From the NCBI RefSeq assembly GCF_900128475.1, contig NZ_LT635838.1, forward strand, positions 145,803 through 209,802: 64,000 nt of DNA, given 5' to 3'. The notes beneath the pieces are model-generated. The model was not told the DNA's origin. It made no database searches and saw only the letters and a program-made list of their open reading frames with translations. Numbering within the stretch: position 1 is the stretch's first letter; each line of letters opens with the position of its first letter. The translations under genes were made by a program, and so were the position numbers. The DNA comes from Mediterranea massiliensis. GTDB taxonomy: Bacteria > Bacteroidota > Bacteroidia > Bacteroidales > Bacteroidaceae. Positions 3,808 through 58,966 of this stretch are shown here, piece by piece.

Positions 3808-5046
3808 ATGTCTACCTACGCACCTTTCGCCAAACCGCTCTACGTGATGCTGAAACCCGTAGGAGCCGTATGCAACCTGGCATGCGACTATTGTTACTAC
3901 CTGGAAAAGTCCAAACTCTACAAGGACAATCCCAAGCACGTGATGAGCGAGGAGCTGCTGGAGAAGTTCATCGAGGAATACATCCAGTCGCAGACCATGC
4001 CGCAGGTGCTCTTCACCTGGCACGGCGGAGAGACGCTGATGCGCCCCCTGTCGTTCTACAAGCGGGCCATGGAGCTGCAGAAGAAATATGCCGGCGGACG
4101 CACCATCGACAACTGCATCCAGACCAACGGCACGCTGCTCACCGACGAGTGGTGCCGCTTCTTCAAGGAGAACAACTGGCTGGTGGGTGTCTCCATCGAC
4201 GGCCCGCAGGAGTTCCATGACGAGTACCGCAAGAACAAGCAGGGACGCCCCTCGTTCCACAAGGTGATGCAGGGCATCAACCTGCTGAAGAAGCACGGGG
4301 TGGAGTGGAACGGCATGGCGGTGGTAAACGACTACAACGCCGACTATCCCGACGAGTTCTACCGCTTCTTCAAGGATCTGGGATGCCACTACATCCAGTT
4401 TGCCCCCATCGTGGAGCGCATCCTGCCCCACGGCGACGGACGTCACTTGGCTTCGCTGGCCGACGGCGGTGACGCGCCGCTGGCCGACTTCTCCGTCAGC
4501 CCCGAACAATGGGGCAACTTCCTCTGCCGCCTGTTCGACCTGTGGGTCAAGGAGGACGTGGGCACGTACTACATCCAGATCTTCGACTCCACGCTGGCCA
4601 ACTGGGTGGGCGAACAGCCCGGCGTATGCTCCATGGCACGGACGTGCGGCCATGCCGGCGTAATGGAGTTCAACGGCGACGTCTACTCGTGCGACCACTT
4701 CGTCTTCCCCGAATACAAGCTGGGCAACATCTACCAGCAGACCCTGGTGGAGATGATGTACAGCGAACGCCAGCAGCGTTTCGGACAGAACAAGTTCGAC
4801 TCCCTGCCCCGCCAGTGCAAGGAGTGTGAGTGGCTCTTCGCCTGCAACGGCGACTGCCCCAAGAACCGCTTCGCCCGCACGGCCGACGGCGAGCCGGGCC
4901 TCAACTACCTCTGCGCCGGCTACCGGAAGTTCTTCAGCCACGTGGCCCCCTACATGGACTTCATGAAGAAGGAGTACCTGGCCCAGCGCGCGCCTGCCAA
5001 CGTGATGGACGCCATCCGCGAAGGCAAGCTGCCCATGCCCCGATAA
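3808..5046 (+). CDS. Anaerobic sulfatase-maturating enzyme (radical SAM, SPASM)
   Basis: Converts the active-site Ser or Cys of sulfatases to formylglycine using S-adenosylmethionine. The 412-aa product carries the radical SAM cluster motif CNLACDYC near residue 25. FTWHGGE lies around residue 70, and C-terminal SPASM cysteines bind two auxiliary Fe-S clusters ([41 protein letters not shown]). Length is typical of anSME. The two sulfatases in this window (11292 and 14373) both have Ser at the modified position. Of the known maturases only the anaerobic type handles Ser, so this enzyme is the natural partner, although it is not in the same operon. Start ATG 3808 fits the upstream -7 box. Confidence 0.92.
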
Positions 5047-18496: not shown

Positions 18497-18540
18497 TGCT
18501 TTTCGGGTCAGAAAACATTGCTTTTCGGGTCAGAAAAGGC
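18497..18540. repeat. 22-bp direct repeat, 2 units
   Basis: TGCTTTTCGGGTCAGAAAA occurs at 18497 and again at 18519, exactly 22 bp later. TTTTC and GAAAA within the unit are complementary. It lies between the 5' end of the M60-like gene and the 3' end of the RNase G gene. It fits the same period and palindromic-core architecture as the larger arrays in this window. Confidence 0.75.
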
Positions 18541-26212: not shown

Positions 26213-26344
26213 CCTTTCATAAACTTTGGCAGAAGTTTAATGTTTTACTTTCTTTGAATCAAGTGTGGATGAATAAAATGAAGGACGGGGAAGTCCCGGT
26301 TCATTAGACTCACCGCTTTTTCCTCGAAAGCAATGATAAAGAAT

Positions 26345-26525
26345 TGGCATGGCAGGTCTTCTGACTCGTTTCTGTTGCAGGCGGCCTTCCCGGAGCAACT
26401 CCAGTGGCATGGGGTAATGTGCCGGCAACGTTTTGTGAAACTCACAGCAGCGGGACTGTTCGGGACTTGCACCCGATTCCCTTTTAATCACCGCCTCCGC
26501 TTGGTGGAAGGCTGGCGAACCAATG
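26345..26525 (-). promoter_or_regulatory. Cobalamin (B12) riboswitch
   Basis: On the reverse strand the conserved elements follow in the known order. AAAGGGAATCGGGTGCAAG is followed by TCCCGAACAGTCCCGCTGCTGTGA (the AGGGAA and CCCGC..CTGT blocks, shown at about 26440-26490). GCCACTGG comes next, and finally the B12 box AGTCAGAAGACCTGCC at 26351-26366. A -7 box TAACTTTG at 26531-26538 would start transcription just before it. The RNA binds adenosyl- or other cobalamin and normally switches off B12-related genes. Downstream there is only a short unannotated stretch, a terminator and then tnaA. Confidence 0.92.
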
Positions 26526-26530
26526 CAGGG

Positions 26531-26538
26531 CAAAGTTA
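26531..26538 (-). promoter_or_regulatory. -7 box (TAACTTTG) for the riboswitch transcript
   Basis: Reverse strand TAACTTTG, which would place the transcript start about 7 nt downstream, right at the riboswitch 5' end. No clear -33 TTTG. 26539-26653 holds nothing else I can identify. Confidence 0.5.
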
Positions 26539-26653
26539 GAAATAAATTTTGAATATCCGAATAGCTGCCGCTGAATATCATGGGATATTCGGCGGATTTA
26601 GATTTGTTTAAGAAGTTGCCCGACTCGGGAGCTGTGCAGGGGCAGATGCCGTT

Positions 26654-27724: not shown

Positions 27725-27893
27725 ATCCTTGTTTTTTGTTTCGTTAGTCGTGCAAGGCTTCGGCTTAGTTACAGGGAGGGTGTTATTTTTTTGTTTAGAA
27801 ACAATTTTCCGCACATTTGGGAAATATCTGCAGTCTGACAAAAGATTTATCGGAGACCGCCGGACAAGAAAGGTGGGTGAAACATAAGGGCAT

Positions 27894-27991
27894 AAAAAAA
27901 GGGCTCCGCTGAGCCCAACCTTTTATTAACCTTAAATCTAATACTATGAAAAACACGCTGCAAAGGTACGGACTTTGCGGAAATCTGCAAA
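27894..27991 (-). ncRNA. Promoter-to-terminator unit, probable small RNA of about 60 nt
   Basis: On the reverse strand TTTG (27988-27991), exactly 19 bp, then TACCTTTG (27961-27968) form a perfect Bacteroides promoter. The predicted start is near 27954. The transcript would end at the hairpin GGGCTCAGCGGAGCCC (27901-27916) followed by seven T (27894-27900). Nothing in between is a plausible protein. The layout resembles the Bacteroidales-1 small RNA class, but I cannot confirm membership. It lies upstream of the sigma factor gene and downstream of the histidine kinase gene. I see nothing in 27725-27893 or 27992-28082. Confidence 0.6.
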
Positions 27992-35702: not shown

Positions 35703-35738
35703 ACCTGTTCTTCGGACAGTATCTATACAGAAAACTCC

Positions 35739-35840
35739 AGTACTTCCGTGCAAGTACTGGAGTATTTCTATGCAAGTACTCGAGTACTTGACTGGAAGTA
35801 CTGGAGTATTCGTCCGTAAGTACCGGAGCTTTTATTTCAG
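35739..35840. repeat. Phased 22-bp repeat array, about 4.5 units, AGTACT core
   Basis: AGTACT or AGTACC starts at 35753, 35775, 35797 and 35819; a second word (AGTAYT/AGTACT) starts at 35739, 35761, 35783 and 35805. Both series step by exactly 22 bp. The core is a perfect palindrome. The array lies between the convergent PHP gene and the exported thioredoxin gene, and its last unit overlaps the thioredoxin stop region (35832). Confidence 0.85.
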
Positions 35841-43004: not shown

Positions 43005-43166
43005 GACAATCGGCCACTGAAAGACCCTGCACGAACGTTTCATTCAACATACACGTTTAATACATCCTTAACTTTTCTTGCACTTTTGCAGCATTTTACA
43101 AGGTTTCATGTAGTCTTTGTGGCTACAGTCAAGAAAAAAAGAGGCCGAAAGGGAAAGATGCGACAC

Positions 43167-43304
43167 GGTGCTTTCTGAGCTTCTGACACAGTGCTTCGTC
43201 AAGGTGTCATGAAGTGCTTTCTGAGGGTGTAACGAAGCACTGTGTGAGGAGGTGACACGGTGCTTCGTCAGAGGGTCAGGAAGCACTGCATGAGAGAGGG
43301 ACGG
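43167..43304. repeat. Phased 23-bp repeat array, 6 units (array B)
   Basis: Units begin at 43167, 43190, 43213, 43236, 43259 and 43282, all exactly 23 bp apart. Each opens with RGTGCTT or AGCACT, the same core as array A at 2706-2820. The last two units (GGTGCTTCGTCAGAG then AGCACTGCATGA) are nearly the same as the last two of array A. Units in opposite sense can pair into stems. Confidence 0.85.
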
Positions 43305-43421
43305 AAACAGGCATCAAAGGCCTCCGAAGCTGCCGGGGTGTTCCATGTAAAATAATATAACCTCGGCACGGCAAGAGCGGCACATTTTCTATCAGACAGG
43401 CTTCACACAGAGGAAGCGAAT

Positions 43422-43509
43422 GTTTCAAACATAAAGGCCTTGGGTTTCAAACATAAGCTCCCTATGTTTGAAACCTACAGGCGTCGGGGTTCAAACCTCC
43501 TTTTCCTTC
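43422..43509. repeat. Phased 22-bp repeat array, 4 units, GTTTSAAAC core
   Basis: GTTTCAAAC at 43422 and 43444, GTTTGAAAC at 43466 and GGTTCAAAC at 43488, exactly 22 bp apart. The core is palindromic apart from its central base. The first two units share GTTTCAAACATAA. Confidence 0.85.
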
Positions 43510-43687: not shown

Positions 43688-46600
43688 ATGAACCTTAAGT
43701 ATCTATATATACTACTGACCACCTGCCTGTGCCTCTGCGTGCAGCTGCCCTGCCACGCTTTCTTTGAAAAGGACCTCCACCTGCTGACCATGAAAAACGG
43801 CCTGTCGGACAACACCATCCAAGCCATCTGCAAAGATCGCAACGGGTTCATCTGGCTCAGCACACGCGATGCCCTGAACCGCTACGACGGCAAGCAAGTG
43901 AAAGTCTTCCTCTTCGACAACACCGGTGCCAACCTTTCCGACCTGAAGGAAATATCGGACGGCCTCCTGTGCTTTGAAAGCCGGGGCTACCTCCATGCCT
44001 TCGACCTGCGCGGCGAACGCTTCGTGCCCATACGGACGGAAGATGGAAAAGAAATCCAAGCGATTGCCACCGCACCCGTGAACGACTCCATCCTCTGGAT
44101 GATGAACAACCACGAGCTGATGCTGGCTCAAAAAACAAACCGTCCACAGAATGATACCATCACTTTCCGCATCCTGAAACGCTTTGAGCCCGGCAAGCAG
44201 GAGGGCAGCCTGCTGGCCAAGTTGTCACTCTCTCCCGACAAACGCTACCTCTGCATAGCCGATACGTATGGCCGCATCATTAGGGCCGACACGGAACGGA
44301 TGGACGGCTTCCAGCCCGTAAACGGCACCGGCTTCGGAAGGCCAATCCAAATCAACCATCTCCTCTACGACGAGGATGGGAACATTTGGATGACCACCCT
44401 CACCCACGGCCTTGTACGCCACAACACACGGACAGGACGTACCACCCGAATGACCTACCACAACAAGTATACGGCCAACCAGCTGTCGCACACCGATGCG
44501 TTCGAAGTGGTACGCCTTGAAAAAAACCGGTACCTGGCCGCCACGTGGAATGGCTATACCCTCATCAGCCTGAACAAGAACAATCCGGACGAAATGACGG
44601 GACAGGTATTCAACAACACCACCTCTTACGTGTTCCGCGACATCGAGACACGCATGGTTGCCGCCTACTACGACCCGCAAGGCATCCTGTGGATAGGGAC
44701 GGACGGAGGAGGAGCCATCTGGTCGGACCTGCGGGAACAGTTCTACAACCGCTATTACCAGGACCGGCACAACGAAATCTGCTCCATGCTGGGCGACGAC
44801 GAAGGCTACCTGTGGCTCACGACCTTCCATCGGGGCATTCTGCGCAGCCGCACTCCCTTCCATTCGGACGAGCCGTTGGATTTTGCCCCGGCCGGCACTT
44901 CCGAAGTACAGCAACGGCACACGGTGCTGAGCAGTACCCGGGACCGGGAAGGAAACCTGTGGTTCGGGAATGCGGACGGCACCCTGACCCGATATGACGC
45001 ACGAAGAAAGAAATTCCAGATTATAAAACTGACCGACGGCTCCACTCCGGTCGAAGGCGCATCGGTATGGAGCCTGCTGGCCGACAGCCGGGGAACCATC
45101 TGGGCAGGGACACAGGCCGGACTTTTCGGCGTCGATCCCGCCACGACAACATCCCGACAAATACACTTTACAGACCCGGAAGGGAAGACGCTTCCCGCTC
45201 CCTATATCCGCGCACTGGCCGAAACAGCCGACCACCACCTCTGGCTAGGCACCACTACGGGGCTCTACCGATACGACTGTCAGGAAGAACGGCTGGAAAC
45301 AGGATATGAAAAAGCAGCCGGCATTTCCGACCCTTCCATCCGCTCCCTCCACGCTGCCGGCAACGGACTGCTGTATGTGGGCTATATGAACAGGCTGGCC
45401 GTCCTCTCGCCCGCGGAAAACCGCATCGTGCAAACCTACGGCACCCAGGACGGGCTGTGCAACGACTTCGTGGGCTGCATCACCGAAGACGAAAAGGGAA
45501 ACATCTGGATCGGATCCAACTCGGGCATCTCGCGTTACGACAGCCGCCAGCACCTGTTCTACAACTACTACGTGTCGGGCAGCAACCGTTCGGCCCTCTA
45601 CTGGAAGCACACCCTGTTCTGGGGGAACAACAAGAACCTGACTTACTTCAAGCCCGACAAGACAGACCGGTTCGAAGTACCGAAGAAGGTCCTGATAACC
45701 GGACTCGAGGTCAACAACAGCCCCGTAGACATCGGCCGGCCGGTCAACGGACAAACCATCCTGCCCTATGGCATCTCCTACCTGTCGGACATCCGGCTGA
45801 GCTACAAGAACCGCGACTTTTCCCTCAACTTCAGCGACCTTTCCTACTCGGACGAACAGCAGATGTATGCCTACCGCCTGTACCCCTACCAGCAGGAATG
45901 GATCTACACGCAAGGAGAGGAAAAGGTGTCCTACACCAACCTGAAGCACGGCGACTACATTTTCGAAATCAAGAACATCCACCCCAACAAGACCTCGGAC
46001 CAGATTACCCGCCTGCACATCGCCATCGACCCTCATTGGAGCAACAGTGCCTGGTTCCGCCTGTGCATCTTCCTCGCCGCAGCCCTGGTCCTGTGGTATG
46101 TCTGGAGGCGCATCCGCATGAGGGCCAAACGGCTGGAACACGAAATGCAGCTGGAGCATGAAGTGTTCACCGCCAAAGTGGAACGCGACAAGGAAAAGCA
46201 ACTGCGCCTGGAACGCGAACGCTTCTTCACCGAAATAGCCCACGAACTGCGCACGCCACTGACCCTGATTCTGGCCCCGCTCCAGGAATTGCTCCACACC
46301 GACGGCCTGTCACCCCAGGCCCGGCGCCAGCTGCAGACGGCCTTCGACAACAGCCGGTCGCTGCATGCCCAGATGGACCAACTGCTGTTCTTGCAGAAGA
46401 TAGAGGCCAACATGGTCCGGCTCAAAGTGGCGGAAACAGACATCAACCGGCTGGCCTCAGACGTATGCGAATCTTTCAAGGCCATGGCCGAGAAAGGCCA
46501 TTACCAGTTCAGCATCCACCTCCTGCCCGAACCGCTCCTGCTGTGGGTCGATGCGGAGAAGATGGCCACTGCCATACGTAACCTGCTGTCAAACGCCTTC

Positions 46601-47770
46601 AAGTACACCCAGCCACAGGGCACTGTGGAACTGATTTTGGGAAGAACCGTCATCGACGGACATCCCTTCTGCAACATTACCGTCAGCGACACAGGTGCAG
46701 GCATCCCGCAGGAAGTGAAGGAGCACCTGTTCGAACCTTTCACCACGGGAGTAAATACTCCCGTCCACTCCACCCAGACGGGCATCGGCATGCGCATCGT
46801 GAAAAACATCGCCGACCTGCACCACGGCTACATCCGGACGGCCGACCATCCCGGACACGGCACCATCATCAGCCTCTACATACCCGAAGGAAACGGCCAC
46901 TTCGACACCGCCAGCGAGAAGGTGACCTTCGTAGGCGTCTCCAAGCCCGCAGCTCCCCACCCCGCCGTGCAACCGCCATCCGAAACGGCCGACGATGCAA
47001 CCCGCCACCGCCTGCTCATCGTGGAAGACAACGCCGACATCCGGCAATACATAGCCAACCTGTTCGAAGGAGAATGCACGACCTACGAAGCGGCCAACGG
47101 CGAGGAAGGCATCAACCGGGCGGAGGAAATACAGCCCGACCTCATCATCTGCGACGTCATGATGCCCGTCAAGGACGGTCTGGAATGCTGCCGCGAACTG
47201 AAAGAATCGCCCCGGACGGCTTCCATCCCCATCCTGATGCTCACCGCCAAGTCCGAAGACTCGGACGTCATCCAGGCCCTGGGCATCGGTGCCGACGACT
47301 ACATGATGAAACCCTTCAACCCCGAAATGCTCCAGACGAGAGTGCGGAGCCTGATACGCCAGCGCGAACGGCTGAAGCGGCTGTATGCCGGCACGTTGCG
47401 GCTGAAAACCGAAGAAACCGAAGAGGGGAAGAAGGAAACGGAAGACTACTTCATCCGCCAGGTGATACAGGTAATCGAAGCCAACCTGGCCGACGAGAAC
47501 TTCAACGTCAAGATGCTGGCCGACCAGCTCCACATGAGCCAGCCGACCCTCTACCGCAAAATCAAACAGCGGAGCGAACTGGCAGCCATCGACATGATCC
47601 GCAGCGTACGCATGAGCAAAGCCGCCTCGCTGATTCTGGAAAACCGGTACAGCATGCAGGAGATTGCCGAGATGGTGGGTTACAACGACACACGCACCCT
47701 GCGGAAACACTTCGTGGCACAATTCGGCGTGTCGCCCTCCAAGTACAGCGAGCAGAACGCGGAAGAGTGA
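43688..47770 (+). CDS. Hybrid two-component system regulator (HTCS)
   Basis: One-protein sensor and transcription factor of 1360 aa, the usual controller of a polysaccharide utilisation locus. After a signal peptide there is a periplasmic sensor of two-component-propeller repeats (for example GNIWMTTLTHGLVRHNTRTG and GNIWIGSNSGISRYD) and a YYY domain before the membrane helix at about 786-808. The kinase has His852 in FFTEIAHELRTPL, N box NLLSNAFKYTQ, G1 SDTGAGIP. The receiver has Asp1156 in IICDVMMP. An AraC-type double helix-turn-helix fills about 1255-1355 (VKMLADQLHMSQPTLYRKIK). It diverges from susC and should activate it when its sugar binds. Its former targets may include the sulfatase-fucosidase genes now at 11292-15935. 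Confidence 0.93.
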   Translation: MNLKYLYILLTTCLCLCVQLPCHAFFEKDLHLLTMKNGLSDNTIQAICKDRNGFIWLSTRDALNRYDGKQVKVFLFDNTGANLSDLKEISDGLLCFESRGYLHAFDLRGERFVPIRTEDGKEIQAIATAPVNDSILWMMNNHELMLAQKTNRPQNDTITFRILKRFEPGKQEGSLLAKLSLSPDKRYLCIADTYGRIIRADTERMDGFQPVNGTGFGRPIQINHLLYDEDGNIWMTTLTHGLVRHNTRTGRTTRMTYHNKYTANQLSHTDAFEVVRLEKNRYLAATWNGYTLISLNKNNPDEMTGQVFNNTTSYVFRDIETRMVAAYYDPQGILWIGTDGGGAIWSDLREQFYNRYYQDRHNEICSMLGDDEGYLWLTTFHRGILRSRTPFHSDEPLDFAPAGTSEVQQRHTVLSSTRDREGNLWFGNADGTLTRYDARRKKFQIIKLTDGSTPVEGASVWSLLADSRGTIWAGTQAGLFGVDPATTTSRQIHFTDPEGKTLPAPYIRALAETADHHLWLGTTTGLYRYDCQEERLETGYEKAAGISDPSIRSLHAAGNGLLYVGYMNRLAVLSPAENRIVQTYGTQDGLCNDFVGCITEDEKGNIWIGSNSGISRYDSRQHLFYNYYVSGSNRSALYWKHTLFWGNNKNLTYFKPDKTDRFEVPKKVLITGLEVNNSPVDIGRPVNGQTILPYGISYLSDIRLSYKNRDFSLNFSDLSYSDEQQMYAYRLYPYQQEWIYTQGEEKVSYTNLKHGDYIFEIKNIHPNKTSDQITRLHIAIDPHWSNSAWFRLCIFLAAALVLWYVWRRIRMRAKRLEHEMQLEHEVFTAKVERDKEKQLRLERERFFTEIAHELRTPLTLILAPLQELLHTDGLSPQARRQLQTAFDNSRSLHAQMDQLLFLQKIEANMVRLKVAETDINRLASDVCESFKAMAEKGHYQFSIHLLPEPLLLWVDAEKMATAIRNLLSNAFKYTQPQGTVELILGRTVIDGHPFCNITVSDTGAGIPQEVKEHLFEPFTTGVNTPVHSTQTGIGMRIVKNIADLHHGYIRTADHPGHGTIISLYIPEGNGHFDTASEKVTFVGVSKPAAPHPAVQPPSETADDATRHRLLIVEDNADIRQYIANLFEGECTTYEAANGEEGINRAEEIQPDLIICDVMMPVKDGLECCRELKESPRTASIPILMLTAKSEDSDVIQALGIGADDYMMKPFNPEMLQTRVRSLIRQRERLKRLYAGTLRLKTEETEEGKKETEDYFIRQVIQVIEANLADENFNVKMLADQLHMSQPTLYRKIKQRSELAAIDMIRSVRMSKAASLILENRYSMQEIAEMVGYNDTRTLRKHFVAQFGVSPSKYSEQNAEE

Positions 47771-58821: not shown

Positions 58822-58878
58822 GCCCCGCCTCCACGAGACCTGCATGCATACCCGCTTGTAGGAAACCAGTCGTTTGCC

Positions 58879-58966
58879 CTGGGTAAAGCATCCTTTTGTC
58901 CAGCTTAAACGGATGGTTTGCCCAGCTTAAACGAACGCTTTGCCCAGCTTAAACTTTTTCGCAAGA
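58879..58966. repeat. Phased 22-bp repeat array, 4 units, CAGCTTAAAC core
   Basis: CAGCTTAAAC starts at 58901, 58923 and 58945, exactly 22 bp apart; a degenerate first unit starts at 58879 (CTGGGTAAAGC). TTTGCC or TTTGTC recurs in the second half of the units. It lies between the lipoprotein gene and the second ABC-F gene, which run in the same direction. Confidence 0.8.

Follow-up and report, generated by a model that had tools for sequence, protein, structure and literature searches.

Phased 22- and 23-bp arrays of dyad-symmetric units in intergenic DNA of Mediterranea massiliensis, possible clusters of protein-binding sites

Introduction

The window analysed in this study is a stretch of 64,000 nucleotides (C24:145803-209802) of the Mediterranea massiliensis genome, a 3.95-Mb draft in 25 contigs. 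Six of its intergenic regions carry arrays of short tandem units, here called A to F. An Rfam search of the window gave two matches, neither at an array, and a known RNA family was thus rejected as the identity of the arrays. The family names F1 to F4 are our own labels, taken from reading an 864-kb scan of the genome. Features of the window are the following.

Array A: 2698-2811, no strand; F1 family, 23-bp units with five cores AGTGCT/AGCACT, in a convergent intergenic region
Array B: 18497-18540, no strand; AAAACATTGCTTTT-type (F4-like), 22 bp, only two units
Cobalamin riboswitch: 26334-26539, minus strand; Rfam match
FopS-family sRNA: 27891-27956, minus strand; Rfam match
Array C: 35733-35835, no strand; AAGTACTSGAGTACTT-like units, 22 bp
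Array D: 43159-43295, no strand; F1 family, 23-bp units with six cores, between divergent genes, upstream of the gene at 43688-47770
Array E: 43419-43499, no strand; F2 family, ATGTTTSAAACAT, 22-bp units
Array F: 58873-58954, no strand; F3 type, GTTTGCCCAGCTTAAAC, 22-bp units

A terminator-like hairpin, separate from the array, lies 3' of array A. The window also holds an 84-bp tandem pair (1719-1889), a separate dispersed repeat whose sequence recurs widely in the genomes G108 (Caecibacteroides pullorum), G102, G160 and G187.

Methods

The genome-scale sample comprised 864 kb, that is the 64-kb window and 800 kb more from the same genome. Genes were called with a purpose-written codon-usage script and arrays were scanned as ungapped self-matches, a segment being counted at a score of at least 13 and at most 60% coding sequence.

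Results

An earlier sequence-only reading of the window had described six intergenic sites with units phased at 22 or 23 bp. This periodicity is confirmed at all six: none of 500 dinucleotide shuffles per intergenic region reached the lag-22/23 score at any site, the top single lag being the doubled one at D (46) and E (44). The phased units themselves cover 2706-2803 in A, 18497-18540 in B, 35734-35828 in C, 43167-43287 in D, about 43422-43499 in E and 58873-58954 in F. The same periods stand out in the self-match scan at genome scale. In the 864-kb sample, lag 22 has the largest number of mostly noncoding segments, 46; lag 23 has 24 and lag 21 has 14, as against two at lag 20 and one at lag 24; lag 14 gives 21 (heptamer arrays), lag 35 gives six and each remaining lag from 12 to 36 gives 0-3. 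One shuffle of the noncoding DNA, at the same score, left 0.08 segments per lag (maximum 1). Coding DNA of the sample yields three segments at lag 22, one at lag 23 and 13 at lag 21; the arrays are predominantly noncoding. Tandem arrays of 7/14 bp, mostly of GAATGAA- and CACTAAC-like heptamers, occupy 30 noncoding places of the sample, e.g. C25:55031-55190 (L033) and C25:278250-278374 (L044).

At lags 21-23 the sample contains 77 arrays; seven heptamer-like ones were excluded and 70 were clustered, a density of about one array per 12 kb. Single-linkage clustering placed 56 of them in seven groups (25, 16, 6, 3, 2, 2 and 2 members) and left 14 singletons, a family count that is approximate, because the method joins F3, F4 and several AAA/TTT-rich arrays into the group of 25. 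Arrays A and D fall into the group of 16 (F1, 23 bp), E into the group of six (F2), B and F into the loose group of 25, and C is a singleton. The notion that every site has its own core therefore has to be narrowed: A and D share one family, B, E and F cluster with dispersed 22-bp arrays, and only C is unique in the sample. Scan and clustering do support the broader claim of several unrelated cores under a common geometry of 21-23 bp, and relatives carry still other cores. Read in one orientation, the 82 F1 units follow about TSAYRMAGTGCTTCSTSAG, most core columns being forced by the search pattern, and only one of them departs from TG or CA at the centre, a regularity that is also partly forced. 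Among neighbouring F1 cores (AGTGCT/AGCACT) within 80 bp in noncoding DNA, 57 of 62 pairs are spaced by 23 bp and three more by 46 bp; in C. pullorum, with coding DNA left unmasked, 25 of 37 pairs have the 23-bp spacing. An array reaching the contig end in G187 (L254 9240-9379) repeats the core AGATACGCATCT at 23 bp and then at 22 bp. The two periods can thus interchange.

The nearest named relative, by best-segment identity to the 43688-47770 protein among the matches listed, is C. pullorum (77%), a genus placed in Bacteroidaceae, followed among these matches by Candidatus Bacteroides merdavium and Bacteroides ndongoniae (76% each). C. pullorum (432 kb, coding DNA included) gives 19, 18 and 14 segments at lags 21, 22 and 23, 16 at lag 14 and at most five at any other lag from 13 to 33. 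In four further congeneric genomes, sampled at 100 kb apiece, lag 22 yields 3, 3, 5 and 3 segments with mostly different cores, and the remaining lags between 13 and 33 yield at most two. Across 79 loci of 43688-47770 homologues (coding DNA included, score 14), lag 22 gives 17 matches, lag 23 nine, and lags 18 and 21 13 each; lag-22 matches with other cores include B. timonensis, B. ihuae, B. congonensis and a Parabacteroides. The 400 kb taken from ten genomes in other orders or classes of the phylum show one match at lag 22 and two at lag 23, with 11 each at lags 18 and 21, and in twelve other families of the order (274 kb) lags 22 and 23 (one and four) are not in excess over other lags. F1 itself is expanded in six of 157 genomes of the genus, the study genome included, expansion being taken as 20 or more pairs of phased cores, in a number no lower than fourfold that of the reversed-pattern control. 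This control is itself elevated in some F1 genomes (19 in the study genome, 55 in G187), we think due to arms recurring at the same step.

Placement was scored for 53 arrays of lag 22 or 23 whose intergenic region measures 100-1200 bp: 12 are in convergent regions (6.6 expected, P 0.03) and ten in divergent ones (15.0 expected, P 0.08), and in same-direction regions 22 of 31 are closer to the upstream stop codon. The bias to gene 3' ends is modest; such placement argues mildly against promoter operators.

The sequence-only reading had noted that most cores are palindromic, and this holds. In a pooled set of 83 arrays with at least three units (own, C. pullorum and other Bacteroidota), 37% have a dyad symmetry of at least 0.7, as against 1.2% with unit columns permuted. 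In tests of limited power, covariation of the arms is absent in the 82 F1 units, where some pairs match below expectation (e.g. 31 vs 43.0), and in 60 other arrays, where the excess of 3.4 is below the mean of a column-shuffle null (10.6, SD 7.0; P 0.87). An initial signal in the non-F1 arrays (z 3.0) was dropped: it was biased, since the dyad axis had been picked on the same data, and it vanished when the column-shuffle null was run through the whole procedure (P 0.87).

Symmetry and placement bring up the possibility that the arrays act as RNA, as hairpin series in 3' untranslated regions or as terminators. The dyad units, the bias to gene 3' ends and array C, where relatives carry a simple terminator-like hairpin, speak for it; the missing left-right covariation, limited in power as it is, the lack of Rfam matches to the six arrays, the ten of 53 arrays between divergent genes and the separate terminator-like hairpin beyond array A speak against it. 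We regard an RNA-level role as quite improbable.

Flanks could be anchored in C. pullorum (432 kb) for eight of 75 own array regions. All four anchored F1 arrays (A, D and those of L016 and L019) are still F1 there. The L014 array is kept with F4-like cores, site C has a 22-bp array with a different core, GGAAAC..GTTCCC, and at the anchored sites of E and of the L026 array (4150-4234) arrays are missing. Site A in G160 bears five 23-bp units, three of them with an altered core, and no array is found at this site in G206, G101 and G112. One-mismatch matches to the altered core number 15 in G160 (control 0) vs 2-7 (controls 0-4) in seven other genomes, the G160 genome being 80% complete and the matches having been shown as phased arrays only at site A and L259. 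In G102 the F1 array at site A is absent and about 1.9 kb of other DNA, which may be an insertion sequence, is present (L255 13035-14906).

Read by eye, an F1 array stands at D in L051 and in L052 (B. merdavium), and an F2 array stands at E in L052 and is absent from L051; B. ndongoniae (L066) has neither D nor E. Upstream of the 43688-47770 homologue of Candidatus Bacteroides pullicola there is a near-perfect four-unit 23-bp repeat (L064 4814-4905), likely a variable-number locus. Site C in G160, G206 and G101 is, by eye, a plain terminator-like hairpin, so that array C may derive from a terminator arm.

Fifteen F1 arrays have their unit order in common: the mean best score is 0.249, against 0.178 (SD 0.006) with order shuffled, a value reached by none of 200 shuffles. 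With orientation kept and the centre omitted it is 0.246, against 0.189 (SD 0.006; none of 150). F1 arrays are therefore copies of whole arrays. In many, the left units have one orientation and the right units the opposite one.

Whole-element copying is what selfish or non-autonomous mobile repeats (MITE- or REP-like) would produce, their units being transposase-binding sites and the copies decaying after transposition. Dispersal in families, the opposed orientation of left and right units and the lineage-specific expansion of F1 in six of 157 genomes fit as well, and a 23-nt array within a MITE is described for Porphyromonas gingivalis in the available part of one article (PMC4596501). In about 30 bp of flank at the 15 F1 arrays, by eye, we saw no common leader, tail, terminal inverted repeats or target duplication; the Y1 transposase (RAYT) domain PF01797, the sole transposase domain searched, had no match in the study genome; and the four of four anchored F1 arrays that persist with patterned conservation are unlike decaying elements. 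On balance we consider mobile repeats rather unlikely, albeit the strongest of the alternatives.

Conservation within F1 was assessed in five orthologue alignments of four own arrays (D twice), comprising 28 units. All 56 comparisons agree at positions 5 and 18, and AG/CT is kept in 104 of 112, the six core positions being largely forced by the search in own copies, with 5 and 18 free. The centre is kept in 42 of 56, with TG/CA switches between orthologues, positions 8 and 15 in 43 of 56 and the arm positions 6, 7, 16 and 17 in 65 of 112, as compared to 118 of 168 for linkers and 246 of 349 for aligned flanks; these position groups were chosen after the unit frequencies had been seen and describe a single family. 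Recognition of spacing rather than sequence, as formerly suggested, is disfavoured by the conservation of particular dyad positions in F1. Absent covariation is expected if half-sites are read independently. Together with the symmetric alternation of kept and free positions and the flexible centre, we infer from it the imprint of a dimeric DNA-binding protein. Protein binding fits this pattern better than slippage or hairpins in RNA do, and gene conversion from unit to unit could also maintain the key bases.

Local slippage had been put forward as the origin of the arrays. It does not account for F1, since different arrays share their unit order and orthologues keep the same key bases. A broader variant would make the arrays the functionless product of a mutational process alone, in which palindromes undergo template switching or tandem slippage at an inherent step of 22-23 bp. 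Similar linkers in some arrays (L018 15445-15527), the possible origin of array C from a terminator arm, lag 22 with unrelated cores across many species and the TG/CA switches at the F1 centre, which could be small inversions, are in its favour. Uneven conservation within the F1 dyad, the unit order shared between F1 arrays and the near absence of the periods from the ten genomes of other orders or classes weigh against it, and we find such an origin improbable.

Discussion

The arrays are real, widespread in the group, structured and probably functional. Period, dyad symmetry and dispersal are shown for the arrays in general, and a common unit order and patterned conservation at orthologous sites for F1 alone. 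The reading that we prefer, although we give it only about an even chance, is that the arrays are homotypic clusters of dyad-symmetric sites for putative dimeric DNA-binding proteins, one site for every two turns, held by selection. A separate reader would serve each family (F1 at 23 bp; F2, F3 and F4 at 22 bp; others). Neighbouring dimers two helical turns apart would lie on nearly the same face of the DNA and could bind cooperatively; copies of whole arrays would have reached many intergenic regions, with a modest preference for gene 3' ends, after which selection would preserve the bases touched by the protein and leave the linkers and the other arm bases free to drift. Protein binding, its dimeric and cooperative nature and a role of the arrays are what we infer; as a guess, the arrays may organise the chromosome or silence it locally rather than control promoters. 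Binding on one helix face is plausible, yet 23 bp correspond to 2.2 turns, so that over five F1 units the sites would make about one full circuit of the helix, which counts against a same-face arrangement. The different core at site C in C. pullorum is likewise odd for sites of a fixed reader.

HU-HIG proteins have the HU/IHF fold and are candidate readers. Matches to HU-HIG (PF18291) number 15 in the study genome, 15 in C. pullorum and 10-21 in four more genomes of the genus, compared with 0-3 in five genomes of other orders or classes and 1-3 in five further genomes of the class. Twelve other families of the order have 1-4 in eleven cases and 12 in G029, which is the source of the only lag-22 match in that set. 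Through the named loci 19 of 20 genomes were counted (L062 was left out). Among these, the counts are 16 (Parabacteroides), 19 (a Tannerellaceae MAG), 9 (Massilibacteroides), 11 (B. ihuae), 43 (B. timonensis) and 6 (a Bacteroidaceae MAG, L076). Counts are low in two Paludibacter MAGs (5 and 3), Geofilum (2), a Prevotellaceae MAG (3) and two Bacteroidales MAGs (1 and 2), and two Pedobacter, a Dyadobacter and an Emticicia have one each. Altogether, the 13 clear-array genomes counted have 6-43 matches and nearly all others 0-5. Exceptions are G020 (three matches), with a good 23-bp array (L293 164-231, score 29), and a Pedobacter locus (L070, one match) with a three-unit 22-bp match (score 20); weaker or AT-rich array matches occur elsewhere, e.g. 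in L080, L206 and L210. No array was present in the 14 kb seen of three HU-HIG-rich genomes, those of Phocaeicola plebeius (8), P. vulgatus (15) and B. fragilis (16).

The counts include ordinary HU and the pattern tracks phylogeny, so that the expansion, a confounded association with exceptions, serves only as a lead to proteins that may bind the arrays. Five HU-HIG matches lie in the 864-kb sample; three of them appear non-canonical, two of these three with a heptamer array within 250 bp, as seen post hoc. A shared chromosomal addressing system of Bacteroidaceae and Tannerellaceae, with lineage-specific dyad families on a two-turn grid read by expanded HU-HIG paralogues whose specificities turn over with their sites, is a speculation to which we attach little probability.

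If the arrays are sites for proteins not yet described, they would represent a large uncharted layer of DNA recognition in these chromosomes. Among the abundant bacteria of the human gut are relatives whose arrays have other sequences. With geometry constant and sequence variable, the co-evolution of specificity and site would be open to a direct test.

In a search of the open-access literature, subscription journals and preprints apart, this class of arrays was not found described, and the BrickBuilt element of P. gingivalis came nearest. P. gingivalis belongs to the order Bacteroidales. BrickBuilt is a minisatellite/MITE with 23-nt imperfect tandem units (1 to 22.8 per element), intergenic, with 19 dispersed elements, mostly with a leader or tail and inverted ends (PMC4596501). 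According to the available part of that article, it resembles the present arrays in the 23-nt length, the intergenic and dispersed location and the confinement of variable bases mostly to one half of the unit, but it has one core family only. It was rejected as a relative: despite equal length, the dyad of the published consensus is no better than chance (P 0.71).

REP and GTAG-/CGTC-tagged repeats are dispersed extragenic palindromes of many families, the CGTC type occurring in five phyla including Bacteroidetes (PMC3733652). As described in the accessible sections, REPs measure 20-40 bp with stem, loop and an unpaired tag at one end, which in CGTC-tagged REPs means a stem of 8-9 bp, a loop of 4-5 bp and an unpaired CGTC; REP dimers are common and GTAG clusters frequent, and 22/23-bp phased arrays are not described in these sections (PMC3733652). 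A further article, a survey of structure-related patterns in prokaryotes, covers palindromes and close repeats in general terms, and its available part contains nothing on 22/23-bp arrays (PMC4060949). By inspection, F1 arms often read CGTC/GTCA, but inside the dyad and with a 2-bp centre. RAYT-driven REPs were rejected, as PF01797 (Y1_Tnp) was found in five of 14 control genomes and had no match in the study genome.

CRISPR arrays are alike in their regular period and in combining conserved with variable parts. They differ in that the unit here is only 22-23 bp and several families occupy many loci, and in that the linkers here resemble one another from unit to unit and are retained in part at orthologous sites, which argues against unique CRISPR spacers. 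Among homotypic operator clusters and dispersed sites of nucleoid proteins, ArgR boxes, matS and Noc sites are dyad-symmetric protein sites with one reader and one sequence each. The arrays resemble ArgR boxes in having sites about two turns apart and matS and Noc sites in being dispersed along the chromosome, and differ from all three in bringing several unrelated cores under one geometry.
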